Shown here: one piece after another, positions 28,644 through 47,898 of the stretch
How the letters are laid out: every line of letters begins with the position of its first letter
Numbering within the stretch: position 1 is the first letter of the stretch
Assembly: GCA_009889625.1 (NCBI GenBank)
Contig: WTZU01000005.1
Coordinates: 1 to 61,576 of the forward strand
Origin: Candidatus Hikarchaeia archaeon HikBin5
GTDB taxonomy: Archaea; Halobacteriota; Halobacteria; Halobacteriales; Hikarchaeaceae
Length of the DNA stretch: 61,576 nucleotides
Reading direction: 5' to 3'
Translations under genes and position numbers: made by a program
Notes under the pieces: model-generated
Told to the model about the DNA's origin: nothing
Database searches by the model: none
What the model saw: only the letters and a program-made list of their open reading frames with translations

Positions 28644-29180
28644 CTATCTGTGCCTACTACTTCTTCCAACCGCCCCTGATGCACGGATAGTTTTTAGTAC
28701 AAATTCAGCATTACTGCCCCCTGCGACTATGAGTATCATCTCTAACACTACGACCGCAAAACCTGCCAATGGTGCTATCTGCCATTGATAACCCATCCAA
28801 TAATATCTGTCAAGGAAATACAGGGTCACCACGGTCACCATCACAATGGTCACAACTGCACCTATCAACAACCACCACCCTTTGCTACTTTTTGGAGGCA
28901 AATCCAGTGATTTTAACATCTGCTTAGTTGTTTGTGGTGGATTTTCAAACATATCCAGTGCATGGCCCAAACATGCCCCTAAAAACATCATGAGACAGAT
29001 TAGTGAGAATGCAAACACCACCACGATATCTGCAACTAACCAATCAATCCCCTGTTCAGCTATTGCCCGAACTAATATGTATAAAATGGACAACGTAACT
29101 CCCATCCGAGCTCCACGTTGCATTAGTTCTGTGAAGTTCTCTAAGTCCTCCACTCCATTTCCTATTTTTCCCTGTGGCAT
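28644..29180 (-). CDS. membrane protein, unknown function
   Basis: Starting at the ATG at 29180 avoids overlap with nrdJ and gives 178 residues (an upstream in-frame start exists). About four membrane helices lie near 26-42, 46-72, 104-124 and 136-155, with the loop ENPPQTTKQMLKSLDLPPKSSKG between the second and third. The C-terminus is basic (GRSSRHR). No family is recognised. It lies 7 bp after nrdJ on the same strand and may be cotranscribed. Confidence 0.55.
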   Translation of the reverse strand: MPQGKIGNGVEDLENFTELMQRGARMGVTLSILYILVRAIAEQGIDWLVADIVVVFAFSLICLMMFLGACLGHALDMFENPPQTTKQMLKSLDLPPKSSKGWWLLIGAVVTIVMVTVVTLYFLDRYYWMGYQWQIAPLAGFAVVVLEMILIVAGGSNAEFVLKTIRASGAVGRSSRHR

Positions 29181-29187
29181 CGCGACC

Positions 29188-32100
29188 CTAACACTCCGAC
29201 CATCCGCACGATTCACACGTCTTACAACCCTCTGAGAAATTCAATGTCAAAGATCCACATGAAGGGCATTCTGGACTTTCTCCTGCATCTATTAACGATT
29301 GGGTCACATCAACTACTACTGGGGCCACTTTTTTTGAAGTGTCTTGATTTATTTCTTGATTATTGATCTCGGATAGGTTCTTCTGTTGAGGGTATTCTTT
29401 GTGAATTTCACCATCTAAATATCGCTTCATCGCAGTTCCTATTGCATCGGGTATCGATTGAATTTGGCCGCCCTTGTCCCATGCAATTTTTGGCGATCTT
29501 ATTCCCTTCAATTCGCCTGCAATCTCTCGAGGATCTACTCCAGATCTCAATGCAGTTGAAACTATTTTTGCCAATGCTTCTGTAAAACTCGCAGTAAATC
29601 CTCCTGAGTTCCCAATATTTGCAAATAATTCAAATGGCCTACCTTGCTCATCTTCGTTTATATTCACATATAATTTGCCATACCCTGTATCTATCCGCTG
29701 GGTAAGTCCATAAAGAACACCCGGTCGAGGGCGTTTTCTGGATTTTCCATATGCTAGTGCCGGAACATCCCATATGCTAAGATCTTCTCCATGATGTTTC
29801 CATTCTTCTGTGATTTTTGCACGAATAGTTTCATCATTTAAAAATTCTGACAAACTATCGAAATGAACATTTATATATTCGAGCAATCGATCTGCTGCCT
29901 CTCCTTCGCCAGCATCTATAAATTCGGCATTTTGCGCCCTAGTTGTAAGGACTTGTTTAGTTCTAGACCCATCTCTGTATACTGTAACGCCCTTTCCACC
30001 ATTTTCATAAATATATCTATAGACTTCATCCATTTCTTCAACCGTGGCATCATTTGGAAAATTGCACGTCTTGGAGATTGCAGAATCAACTCCCTCTTGA
30101 CATGCACATTGCACACTTGCATGTTCTATTGCAGATACTTCTGCAGATACCACAAATAATTCTCCAATGGAATCTGGAACTGTAGTAAGTCCTTTTATCC
30201 CTTTGAATTCATTATTTTGCATTTGTTCTAATGCCTCTTTTTTAACCACATCAACATCAATCCCATTGGCCTCAATAGTCCTCAAAAAGTAGTCATCAAA
30301 TTCAACAAGCATTTCATCCCCTTGAACATCGTCTGACACATTTTTATAATAGGCAACACTGAATATGGGTTCGCACCCTCCTGTTGTATTTGCAATCATA
30401 CTAGTTGTCCCCGTAGGGGCTATCGTTGTGGTATTGTGATTCCGTATTGGAAATCCACCTTTCCAATCTTCAGGATCTAAACCTGTTTCTTTTGTAAACC
30501 ATTCTGCATATTTAACCGGGTCTGCGTATTTGGAATCTGTCCAATTTTTAAACGACCCTCTTGTTTCTGCCAACTCATGGGAAGTCCATTTTGAAACATG
30601 ATTGATGTAAATCATCACTTGTCTAGCCAGTTCATTTCCTTCAGGCGACCCATACTTTAGACCAAGTTGAACGTATAGTTGGGCCAATCCCATTATCCCC
30701 AATCCTATTTTTCTATTATTGTATACTGTCTCTTCAATCCTCTCTACTGGGAAGTCCGACATCGTACACACATTTTCTAGAAAACGCGTACCTAGTTTGA
30801 TTCTTCTATCAAATTCTTCAATATCTATTGCCACTTGAATGAAATCTGACATCAACTCATCAAGTTCTTTATTTGATCTTTTGCCTTCTTTTGACCACGT
30901 TCTCCAATCCGGCGCATCATGAGCTGCGATAGTGGAAAGATTAATGTGGCCCAAATTACATGCTTCATATTCCATCAATGGCTGTTCACCACAAGGATTG
31001 GTCGCTAGAATTTCATAAGGAGATGAATCTCCCGTTGGAGTCGATTTAACAGGAAATGAATGGGCTTGGTTCACACGATCTATATATATTATCCCTGGTT
31101 CTCCATTTTCCCATGCCCCTTCTACTATTCTTTCCCACAAAATAGCTGCAGGTATTGACAATGGCTTTCCTACTTTGACATAATCTTCTAAATCATATCT
31201 CTCATACATTTCCAATGTATATTTTGTCGCGATATGTGGGTCTCCCGTACGAGGATTCAATAAGGTATAATCTCTACCTTCTTTCAACGCTTTCATGAAG
31301 TCATCAGTCACGCCCACAGATACATTAAAATTAGAAAGATGACCTTCAACCGCATTTCTGAGATGTCGAGGGACTCGGCCTTCCGCATCAAGAAGGGTAC
31401 GTGCTTCTTCCAATGCCTCATTAAATGTTGTATATGTGTAATCATCTGGGTCATTCAACCGAAGCGAATGGGCAAGTGATACATCTTTGTTCTTTGCATG
31501 GATGAATTCGATTACATCAGGGTGAGAAATTCGCATGATTGCCATCTGTGCACCCCTTCTCGATCCACCTTGTGCAATAGTTTCGCACATCTGGTCAAAA
31601 GTTTCCATGAATGTTATTGGCCCTGATGCAATTCCTCCTGTAGACCCAACTGTATCTCCATAGGGGCGTATTCTCCAAAATGCATATCCCATCCCGCCTC
31701 CTGATTGGAAAACTTGTGCTGCTTCTAGTGCCGTATGGTGGATGTCAACTATATCATCTTTTGGAGAATCTACAAAACAAGCAGAAAGTTGTTGAAGCTC
31801 ATCCCCTGCATTCATTATAGTGGGCGAATTTGGTATGAATGATAGATCTTCCATAAATTCACAGAATTCATTTGCAATGCCTTCTACATGTTTCTGGATG
31901 TCTTCTGGAAGTAATGGCAAAATAGTTTCGTAACTAAATTTACTCACATTTTTATCTGTTAAATCAGTACTCATGTTCCCTGCGATTATCATTTCTCCAT
32001 TACTTGCAGTGGTTTGACCAAACACCTCTTCAATTAACCTTTCTCTCCGGGGATGTTTCGGTTTGATATGATCTGGAGTAACTGTTATTTTTATATTTTG

Positions 32101-32331
32101 TCTATCTGCCTCATAGACGGCTTCAGCCAAAGCGATATTATTCCCAATCCGGCGAAATAACCTTTCAGGAGTCTCTACAATTTCGCCTTTGTCATCTTTT
32201 CTCAGATATCTCGCAGGAAGGATATTATGATAGGCATTTTTTGTAAGGCGCTCTTCTAGAGTCGACCCATCGGTTCGTTTAACTGGAAGTACAATTGCAT
32301 TTTTTCCACTTTCGGTATCTGCTCTGCCCAT
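29188..32331 (-). CDS. nrdJ: adenosylcobalamin-dependent ribonucleotide reductase (class II)
   Basis: Reduces ribonucleotides to deoxyribonucleotides using a B12-generated thiyl radical. 1047 residues. The N-terminal region (about 1-90) is followed by the catalytic barrel with LSACFVDSP near 180, GGGMGYAFWRIRP near 211, the radical-site NPCGEQPL near 445 and ACNLGHINLS. TTTIAPTGTTSM is near 634. A zinc-ribbon tail with CPSC, CKTC and CGWSEC closes the protein. No class I subunit is present, so B12 is needed. A strong ribosome-binding site precedes the start. Confidence 0.93.
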   Translation of the reverse strand: MGRADTESGKNAIVLPVKRTDGSTLEERLTKNAYHNILPARYLRKDDKGEIVETPERLFRRIGNNIALAEAVYEADRQNIKITVTPDHIKPKHPRRERLIEEVFGQTTASNGEMIIAGNMSTDLTDKNVSKFSYETILPLLPEDIQKHVEGIANEFCEFMEDLSFIPNSPTIMNAGDELQQLSACFVDSPKDDIVDIHHTALEAAQVFQSGGGMGYAFWRIRPYGDTVGSTGGIASGPITFMETFDQMCETIAQGGSRRGAQMAIMRISHPDVIEFIHAKNKDVSLAHSLRLNDPDDYTYTTFNEALEEARTLLDAEGRVPRHLRNAVEGHLSNFNVSVGVTDDFMKALKEGRDYTLLNPRTGDPHIATKYTLEMYERYDLEDYVKVGKPLSIPAAILWERIVEGAWENGEPGIIYIDRVNQAHSFPVKSTPTGDSSPYEILATNPCGEQPLMEYEACNLGHINLSTIAAHDAPDWRTWSKEGKRSNKELDELMSDFIQVAIDIEEFDRRIKLGTRFLENVCTMSDFPVERIEETVYNNRKIGLGIMGLAQLYVQLGLKYGSPEGNELARQVMIYINHVSKWTSHELAETRGSFKNWTDSKYADPVKYAEWFTKETGLDPEDWKGGFPIRNHNTTTIAPTGTTSMIANTTGGCEPIFSVAYYKNVSDDVQGDEMLVEFDDYFLRTIEANGIDVDVVKKEALEQMQNNEFKGIKGLTTVPDSIGELFVVSAEVSAIEHASVQCACQEGVDSAISKTCNFPNDATVEEMDEVYRYIYENGGKGVTVYRDGSRTKQVLTTRAQNAEFIDAGEGEAADRLLEYINVHFDSLSEFLNDETIRAKITEEWKHHGEDLSIWDVPALAYGKSRKRPRPGVLYGLTQRIDTGYGKLYVNINEDEQGRPFELFANIGNSGGFTASFTEALAKIVSTALRSGVDPREIAGELKGIRSPKIAWDKGGQIQSIPDAIGTAMKRYLDGEIHKEYPQQKNLSEINNQEINQDTSKKVAPVVVDVTQSLIDAGESPECPSCGSLTLNFSEGCKTCESCGWSEC

Positions 32332-32334
32332 GTT

Positions 32335-32376
32335 CTATTTTCCTCCTTTTATTTGATTCATTTTCTTTTTTTTCAT
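32335..32376 (-). promoter_or_regulatory. nrdJ translation start region: strong Shine-Dalgarno and 13-codon upstream frame
   Basis: GGAGG lies about 10 bases before the nrdJ ATG, the clearest Shine-Dalgarno sequence I noticed here. The same stretch holds a tiny lysine-rich frame (M-K-K-K-K-M-N-Q-I-K-G-G-K-stop) ending 3 bases before nrdJ. Whether it is translated cannot be told. Confidence 0.4.
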
Positions 32377-32389
32377 AACTCCTCCACAT

Positions 32390-32540
32390 GCGGCGCTCGC
32401 AGCGCTATAAGTTATCAGTACGGCAAAAGCCGCGTTGCCTCGATCAACTTATTAGAGGATTTAATGATGCAACTCTGAGGATATAAGGTTCTTGTGAGCA
32501 TAGTGAAAGTGATAATTGAATGCCTGTATTGTGTCCTCAT
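32390..32540. ncRNA. strongly structured intergenic region between trpG and nrdJ
   Basis: The 252-bp gap before nrdJ holds a GC-rich core in AT-rich surroundings. Perfect stems follow each other: GCGCT-CGC-AGCGC (32393-32405); ATAAGTT (32407-32413) with AACTTAT (32446-32452), enclosing CGGC-AAAA-GCCG (32421-32432); and GAGGA (32477-32481) with TCCTC (32534-32538). It could be a leader element of nrdJ (minus strand), a terminator region after trpG, or a separate small RNA. I see no cobalamin-riboswitch B12 box. Strand unknown. Confidence 0.45.
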
Positions 32541-32583
32541 TAATTGATTTTCCACTGGAAAAATACCTCCAATTTCACTTTTG

Positions 32584-33165
32584 TCAGACAATACTCGAGA
32601 TGAAATTTAGTATGATTTTTTTACCTACTTTTGTAAGTATACTTTCCGGATGAAATTGTACACATTCTATTGGGAATTCATTGTGGCGAATTCCCATCAC
32701 AAGCTCTTCTCCATCTTGAGTTGTAGTTGCAGTCACTTTGAAACATTCTGGAATTTCTGTAGCAACCAAAGAGTGATACCGCGCACCTTGGAAATTTTGC
32801 CGTATATCCTTGAAAACTCCTTCTCCGTCATGGTATATAGGAGAGGATTGGCCATGGATTGGGGACGGGGCCGGGCCAATTTCACCTCCGTATGCATAAA
32901 CTGCGGCTTCTAATCCAAGACATACGCCAAACGTTGGAACTGACGGGCTTATTTCTTTCAATACTTCTAACGTGATTCCTACATCCCTTGAATTTCTTGG
33001 ATGTCCTGGCCCCGGACTTATTACTATCCCATCAGGTTTTTTATCATATATTTTATCTAATGTAGTTGTATTGAGCACCACTTCGGTTTCTGAATGTGCA
33101 CTTACATAATCCACGAGATTGTATGTGAATGAATCAAAATTATCAATAAAAAGTATTTTGATCAT
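32584..33165 (-). CDS. trpG: anthranilate synthase component II (glutamine amidotransferase)
   Basis: Supplies ammonia from glutamine to TrpE for anthranilate. 193 residues of a class I amidotransferase: the nucleophile Cys82 in FGVCLGLEA, the His/Glu pair in QFHPES near 170, and the oxyanion PGPGHP near 51. A pabA role in folate-type synthesis is possible, but the place after trpE in a trpDFEG operon favours tryptophan. Coupled to trpE by TAATG. Confidence 0.93.
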   Translation of the reverse strand: MIKILFIDNFDSFTYNLVDYVSAHSETEVVLNTTTLDKIYDKKPDGIVISPGPGHPRNSRDVGITLEVLKEISPSVPTFGVCLGLEAAVYAYGGEIGPAPSPIHGQSSPIYHDGEGVFKDIRQNFQGARYHSLVATEIPECFKVTATTTQDGEELVMGIRHNEFPIECVQFHPESILTKVGKKIILNFISSIV

Positions 33166-47631: not shown

Positions 47632-47752
47632 ATTTACACATCATATCTTTTGAATAAAAAATACTTTCATAATCATATTGATCTACATTCATTTTGGCCT
47701 CATTTTGATTCATTTTATATTATCCATACTACATAGCGCCCATCGCATTCTA

Positions 47753-47845
47753 GGGGACCCTCCGGATTTGAACCGGGCCCAATGCCTGGTAGTCTTCAGA
47801 CGTTGGTGCCTTCAGGTGACACATATTATCAAAGGTTTAGGTCCC
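47753..47845 (-). tRNA. tRNA-like sequence, isotype not resolved (intron-containing or degenerate)
   Basis: On the minus strand GGGACCT (47845-47839) pairs with GGGTCCC (47760-47754), and the T-arm CCGG-TTCAAAT-CCGG (about 47762-47776) is textbook. The 61 bases between are too long for a simple class I tRNA and show no normal D-loop. A 5-bp arm GTGTC/GGCAC with loop ACCTGAA exists but lacks U33. Two TGAA-loop hairpins (CCTGAAGG, GTCTGAAGAC) follow each other. It may hold an intron or be a decayed tRNA. Confidence 0.45.
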
Positions 47846-47898
47846 AAACATAGAAGTTGTTAAAAAGACAGACTCTCTGTGTATGATGCCTTTTTAAT

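Follow-up and report, generated by a model that had tools for sequence, protein, structure and literature searches.

Translational riboswitches and SD-masking leaders, of which the cobalamin riboswitch and the 'nrdJ RNA' motif are examples, place a folded 5' leader before a metabolic gene, with an SD that can be paired within the fold. Haloarchaeal mRNAs are described as mostly leaderless, and structured-leader control has been called untypical of haloarchaea in one report (PMC4983044). This report also lists Haloferax volcanii genes with a uORF in a long 5'-UTR (16 in its Table 2, none named nrdJ and several coding for unnamed hypothetical proteins). In the same species, termination-reinitiation, in which the stop of an upstream ORF lies at or overlaps the next start and the SD lies inside the upstream ORF, is described as strict coupling in all 9 overlapping gene pairs tested (PMC6728339). 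As for promoters, a TTTCACTTTCA box has been published for four UV-B-induced genes of Halobacterium (radA1, vng17, top6B, and vng280), and nrdJ is UV-induced in this organism too, the motif carriers being named without nrdJ in the available part of that report (Boubriak et al. 2008, PMC2556686). Induction of nrdJ by UV in Halobacterium is also described by McCready et al. 2005 (PMC1224876).

Here, we analyzed the gap between trpG and nrdJ in a Marine Group IV (Hikarchaeia) archaeon, which belongs to a small genus and has a genome of 1.07 Mb. The window, that is, the whole stretch of DNA analyzed, is a contig of 61.6 kb (61,576 nucleotides). Streamlined genomes with a GC content of about 41% are described as typical for this group (PMC7599335). 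The closest named relatives of trpG are those of Marine Group IV archaeon HikBin4 (84% at the amino acid level) and Halobacteriales archaeon ALOHA_A2.5_47 (81%), followed by haloarchaea. The end of nrdJ is overlapped by a 190-aa ORF with hydrophobic stretches (28644-29216, minus strand), for which Pfam and NCBIfam gave no match. Our analysis identified in the gap an element of about 80 nt (Table 1), and we lean toward reading it as the 5' leader of the nrdJ mRNA, on the minus strand. The order on this strand, 5' to 3', is TATCACTTTCAC, TTATAT, the predicted start, UCCUC, the P2/P3 arm, P4, GGAGGA, the ATG of a leader ORF, the nrdJ SD, the stop of the leader ORF, and the nrdJ ATG.

Table 1. Features in and around the trpG-nrdJ gap of the window, and TTTCACTTTCRC loci before other genes of the genus.
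Feature	Position	Strand	Remarks
trpG	32584-33165	minus	same strand as nrdJ; element sits in the trpG-nrdJ gap
Promoter box TATCACTTTCAC	32503-32514	minus	similar to the TTTCACTTTCA box found at UV-induced genes of haloarchaea
TATA-like TTATAT	32481-32486	minus	identical in three genomes
P1 5' strand, UCCUC (anti-SD)	32455-32459	minus	predicted extreme 5' end of the mRNA
P2 5' strand, AUAAGUU	32446-32452	minus	partner 32407-32413; pairs invariant in the consensus fold
GAGG, possible alternative anti-SD partner	32438-32441	minus	minimum-energy fold of G003
P3 hairpin, GCGGC-UUUU-GCCGU	32420-32433	minus	stem reduced by one pair in G001; a single G-U in G003
P2 3' strand, AACUUAU	32407-32413	minus	
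P4 hairpin, GCGCU-GCG-AGCGC	32393-32405	minus	loop GCG/GUG/AUG across three genomes; five-pair stem invariant
Leader-ORF SD, GGAGGA	32380-32385	minus	GAGGA (32380-32384) is the P1 3' strand
Leader ORF (MKKKKMNQIKGGK, TAG)	32335-32376	minus	13 codons; 3 nt between its end and the nrdJ ATG; includes the nrdJ SD
nrdJ, adenosylcobalamin-dependent ribonucleotide reductase, 1047 aa	29188-32331	minus	NCBIfam TIGR02504, 707 bits (cut-off 400); Pfam
TTTCACTTTCRC locus L153	G000:C33:26361		precedes radA; homologues in G001-G003
TTTCACTTTCRC locus L145	G000:C8:17210		precedes RPA; homologues in G001-G003
TTTCACTTTCRC locus L149	G000:C23:73497		precedes the zinc-type protein gene; homologues in G001-G003

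A preliminary description of this DNA had marked 32390-32540 as a GC-rich island with at least four stems in 150 nt just before nrdJ, possibly a functional RNA. The GC content of these 151 nt is 43.7%, as high as that of 25% of all 151-mers, the window as a whole having 39.9%. Real enrichment is confined to 57 nt (32388-32444), with a GC content of 56.1% that just 1.6% of the window's 57-mers reach, so that the GC-rich part amounts to about one third of the proposed island. The GC-richest 57-mer among the 26 intergenic gaps compared (0.63) lies in the gap 47632-47898 and exceeds that of the nrdJ leader. The perfect stems are indeed present, within 32380-32460 (on the minus strand UCCUC/GAGGA, AUAAGUU/AACUUAU, GCGGC/GCCGU, and GCGCU/AGCGC). 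A single RNA across the 150 nt is not supported, the upstream part (32481-32514) being promoter (box and TATA), and the folding energy of the proposed region, calculated on a slightly longer stretch, is not better than that of shuffles (z -0.41 plus strand, -0.68 minus strand).

The leader could be aligned for three of the four genomes of the genus (the window, G001, and G003), nrdJ of G002 being cut by a contig end that leaves its leader unreadable. In this alignment, the core (32377-32460) has pairwise identities of 88, 85, and 88%, above those of the spacer adjoining trpG (58, 60, and 75%) and the leader-ORF stretch (66, 71, and 72%); the third codon positions of nrdJ reach 54, 56, and 63% in the same genomes. 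When all segments of 84 nt in the aligned stretch are ordered by three-way identity, the core comes 98th of 4696. The sequence just upstream of the TATA (32492-32519) is 82-89% identical. Conservation is a stronger signal than folding.

The element consists of three helices in the minus-strand RNAalifold consensus: the closing helix P1, the P2/P3 arm, and P4. For the three sequences, the consensus energy is -25.3 kcal/mol, whereas shuffles average -15.1 kcal/mol (z -3.30) and 2 in 1000 column shuffles reach the observed value; a fold conserved beyond chance is thus observed in related leaders, in three sequences of one genus. Together with the conserved core, this bears out the earlier proposal of a structured element beside nrdJ. 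Trimmed to 96-98 nt, the single sequences fold modestly better than shuffles on the minus strand (z -1.41, -1.81, and -2.90), with plus-strand values of -1.78, -2.90, and -1.17. Since the plus-strand consensus fold is equally good (z -3.63, matched by 0 of 1000 column shuffles), the choice of strand rests on G-U pairs and on the orientation of promoter and SD: four G-U cells inside P3 favor the minus strand and two at helix ends favor the plus strand. Compensatory change, proposed earlier as a check, was found once and no more among the three sequences, one P1 pair being C-G in two genomes and U-A in G003 (UCCUC to UCCUU with GAGGA to AAGGA). Besides this, one P3 pair is lost symmetrically in G001, and P2 and P4 are invariant except for the end pair of P4. 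That there is a single double change reflects the existence of just three such sequences in the searched collections.

Single-sequence folds divide between two arrangements. For the window and G003, the structure of lowest energy pairs GCGGC with GCYGC in a different hairpin, which takes the place of P2-P4, and the predicted probability of P1 in the longer mRNA is 0.00 in the window, 0.66-0.79 in G001, and 0.05-0.06 in G003. UCCUC has three possible partners, namely the leader-ORF SD (P1), the GAGG listed in Table 1, and, in the window sequence, also the nrdJ SD. In these models, such competition would fit a switch and, equally well, an undecided fold. The cost of opening the SD is unexceptional in the three leaders (4.54, 2.18, and 2.12 kcal/mol, with 28, 73, and 131 of 200 shuffles as high, the shuffles preserving base composition and not dinucleotides), so that SD masking is not stronger than chance against shuffled leaders. 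It should be noted that SD motifs reportedly do not bring ribosomes to 5'-UTRs in Haloferax volcanii (PMC6728339), and, if this applies to Marine Group IV too, SD masking would be of little consequence. Among the leading genes of the window (45 of its 84 ORFs judged to be genes), 1 of 27 has an SD, and this is nrdJ itself, which makes SD-led initiation behind a folded leader an exception in this genome stretch.

Transcription is predicted to start at about 32460 (range 32458-32462) on the minus strand. The exact 11-base TTTCACTTTCA motif is absent at nrdJ; the window has TATCACTTTCA, with one mismatch, and G001 and G003 have two mismatches each. The nrdJ box stands just upstream of the TATA, an arrangement shared with radA. 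Exact TTTCACTTTCRC copies were found at 10 loci in the four genomes, in front of the genes for radA (1), RPA (4), a 38-aa zinc-type protein (3), and, farther away, a MetE-like protein (2), where families were assigned on one member per gene group and the 38-aa protein, without a match, is called zinc-type from its cysteine pairs alone. Near-exact copies occur at radA in G001 and G003, and box and TATA stand in nrdJ-like orientation at radA, RPA, and the gene for the 38-aa protein. The MetE-like sites (L154 and L148) were not counted as support, as they lie 146 nt before the gene and have no obvious link to a TATA. Site L146 also falls inside a 509-codon open frame on the opposite strand, and long frames also contain two of the one-mismatch sites, L157 and L165. 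Across the four genomes, one-mismatch boxes are not more numerous than in the reversed control, and our reading is therefore limited to the 10 exact and three one-mismatch loci. In its position before the TATA at nrdJ and in its exact or near-exact copies at radA of the same genus, the box resembles that of Halobacterium; it differs in its mismatches at nrdJ, a gene not included among the carriers named in the available part of the Halobacterium report (PMC2556686). As judged from these promoters, radA, RPA, the 38-aa zinc-type protein gene, and nrdJ likely form a DNA-damage/replication regulon in Marine Group IV.

The leader ORF has 19 codons in G001 and G003. Its SD, its ATG, the A-run after the ATG, and ATGAAAAAAA are conserved in the three genomes, and the peptide is not. 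Counted by eye from the nrdJ start, the stop positions are -6, +5, and +5. A short ORF with its stop at the nrdJ start is thus conserved in 3 of 3 Marine Group IV genomes, as well as in the haloarchaea described below. With the leader ORF running up to the nrdJ start, most translation of nrdJ probably comes from ribosomes that have only just completed this ORF. This layout shares with termination-reinitiation in Haloferax volcanii (PMC6728339) the upstream stop at or overlapping the next start and the SD inside the upstream ORF; it differs in that the upstream ORF is a leader of 13-19 codons without a conserved peptide. With the uORFs of Haloferax volcanii, it has in common a short ORF and a long leader.

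For comparison with haloarchaea, we used 22 of the 26 nrdJ loci from outside the genus (L117-L138), omitting L139-L142, in which the start lies inside the protein. Several haloarchaeal nrdJ open frames (these four and others) extend over 1400-2660 codons and match in broken pieces, which suggests inteins. With shuffles that kept base composition and not dinucleotides as reference, TTTCRC-N14-18-TTA was found 214-283 nt before the nrdJ start in 19 of the 22 upstream regions (0.19 expected), and all 22 have a leader ORF that begins with ATG and stops at the nrdJ start (5.48 expected). Against such shuffles, the leaders show no shared fold (mean z -0.15, alifold 0). A stricter box pattern was matched 31 times, in 30 of 195 genomes of the order, and 0 times in the reversed control, and these matches precede nrdJ in the five matching genomes with nrdJ coordinates (G007, G019, G023, G032, and G034). 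The haloarchaeal leader ORFs have 14-30 codons (nearest ATG), many beginning at a conserved CGTYACGAATG and some having a common RIA-like stretch; their junction with nrdJ is a 4-nt ATGA/GTGA overlap in 20 of 22 cases, and the region from box to ORF lies about 40-280 nt upstream of nrdJ. In many of these regions, a second TATA-like stretch, seen by eye shortly before the leader ORF, suggests a nearly leaderless leader-ORF transcript. The box and the coupled leader ORF therefore recur in haloarchaeal nrdJ, whereas the Marine Group IV fold does not.

Searches for known families gave the leader no other identity. Rfam returned six chance-level matches for 32250-32700 at E up to 10, with no riboswitch among them, and none for the three nrdJ leader loci at E up to 5; the scan at gathering thresholds was likewise empty. 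A cobalamin riboswitch was rejected, its covariance model (B12 box, core) being unmatched, in line with the preliminary description, which saw no B12 box. A C/D or H/ACA guide RNA, named there as the kind of known family that would speak against its reading, was rejected too, as Rfam gave nothing above chance (matches far below the gathering score, and 0 at the three loci), and neither ARAGORN nor Rfam found a tRNA in the trpG-nrdJ gap. A covariance model built from the three sequences (R1) recovered only its three source genomes among 293 genomes of the order. Among 392 genomes of the phylum it recovered its own genome and two weak matches (E 0.0123 and 0.099 per genome), which we regard as chance matches in a search of so many genomes. 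Within these collections, then, no convincing instance lies beyond the genus, and the fold is specific to this lineage. IMG/VR gave no match by protein or by DNA pattern, and in the part of the literature covered we found no report of a riboswitch-type leader of nrdJ or of a haloarchaeal nrdJ leader peptide.

Several explanations compete with a regulatory leader. The fold may belong to a plain conserved 5' leader, protecting the mRNA 5' end or keeping the ORF start reachable, with control by the promoter only and no switch. SD masking at the level of shuffles, a damage-type promoter box that suffices to explain regulation, and haloarchaeal leaders without a common fold would all agree with this; nevertheless, the core is conserved above the spacer and the leader-ORF stretch, the consensus fold beats shuffles, and P1 has changed on both sides, and we regard this explanation as possible, though rather unlikely. 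The inverted repeats could also be protein-binding sites around the transcription start instead of RNA structure, given that the promoter is conserved as well, that the fold is equally good on both strands, and that some repeats are perfect (for example, AGCGCT...AGCGCT in two genomes). The conserved minus-strand G-U pairs, a P4 loop that varies while its stem stays, and stems nested around the SD and ORF start make such DNA-level elements improbable.

The GC-rich hairpins and the plus-strand consensus fold could also be explained by a separate small RNA or by a plus-strand antisense RNA. We consider this very unlikely, as Rfam and tRNA matches are lacking, the conserved TATA and box are oriented toward the minus strand, and the element keeps its place beside nrdJ in all 3 assembled loci. 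The preliminary description had left the choice between a different element and an independent RNA; a non-cobalamin element is what we find, and an nrdJ leader is likelier than an independent RNA because promoter, SD, leader ORF, and gene are all aligned on the minus strand. That the NrdJ enzyme uses adenosylcobalamin might point to a known riboswitch in diverged form, for instance of the cobalamin class, an idea that the absence of any riboswitch among the Rfam matches renders hardly credible.

Under the favored reading as an nrdJ leader, the mRNA would be transcribed from the minus strand under a promoter with a DNA-damage-type box, and its first ~80 nt would fold as P1, the P2/P3 arm, and P4, with the 5'-terminal UCCUC pairing with the leader-ORF SD. 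Translation of nrdJ would then proceed mainly by termination-reinitiation after the leader ORF. As P1 holds the leader-ORF SD and nrdJ is coupled to the leader ORF, its opening or closing would set initiation at the leader ORF and, through coupling, NrdJ output. P1 might be opened by a ligand (adenosylcobalamin or a dNTP), by a protein, by temperature, or by nothing at all. We infer that the leader is transcribed, that its ORF is translated and, in this archaeon, coupled to nrdJ, and that P1 is regulatory; the switching of P1 and any ligand are guesses. A new class of archaeal riboswitch, in which a signal of DNA-precursor supply (adenosylcobalamin or dNTP) acts on a 5' anti-SD that gates a coupled leader ORF under a damage-inducible promoter, is a speculative reading to which we give a small chance. 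The Marine Group IV leader differs from translational riboswitches and SD-masking leaders in having no covariance-model match or known ligand and in coming from a lineage of archaea that rarely has leaders of this kind; if it acts at all, it would do so via the leader ORF.

The leader fold and the coupled tiny ORF probably help control the amount of enzyme. A conserved and structured nrdJ leader that is particular to this lineage and carries a coupled leader ORF would add to the known structured leaders that mask an SD or attenuate. On a gene that limits DNA-precursor supply, such a leader with its coupled ORF would be an exception among haloarchaeal-type mRNAs, and, as the box-plus-coupled-ORF layout is common to Marine Group IV and haloarchaea, the latter provide a cultivable model for the leader ORF.
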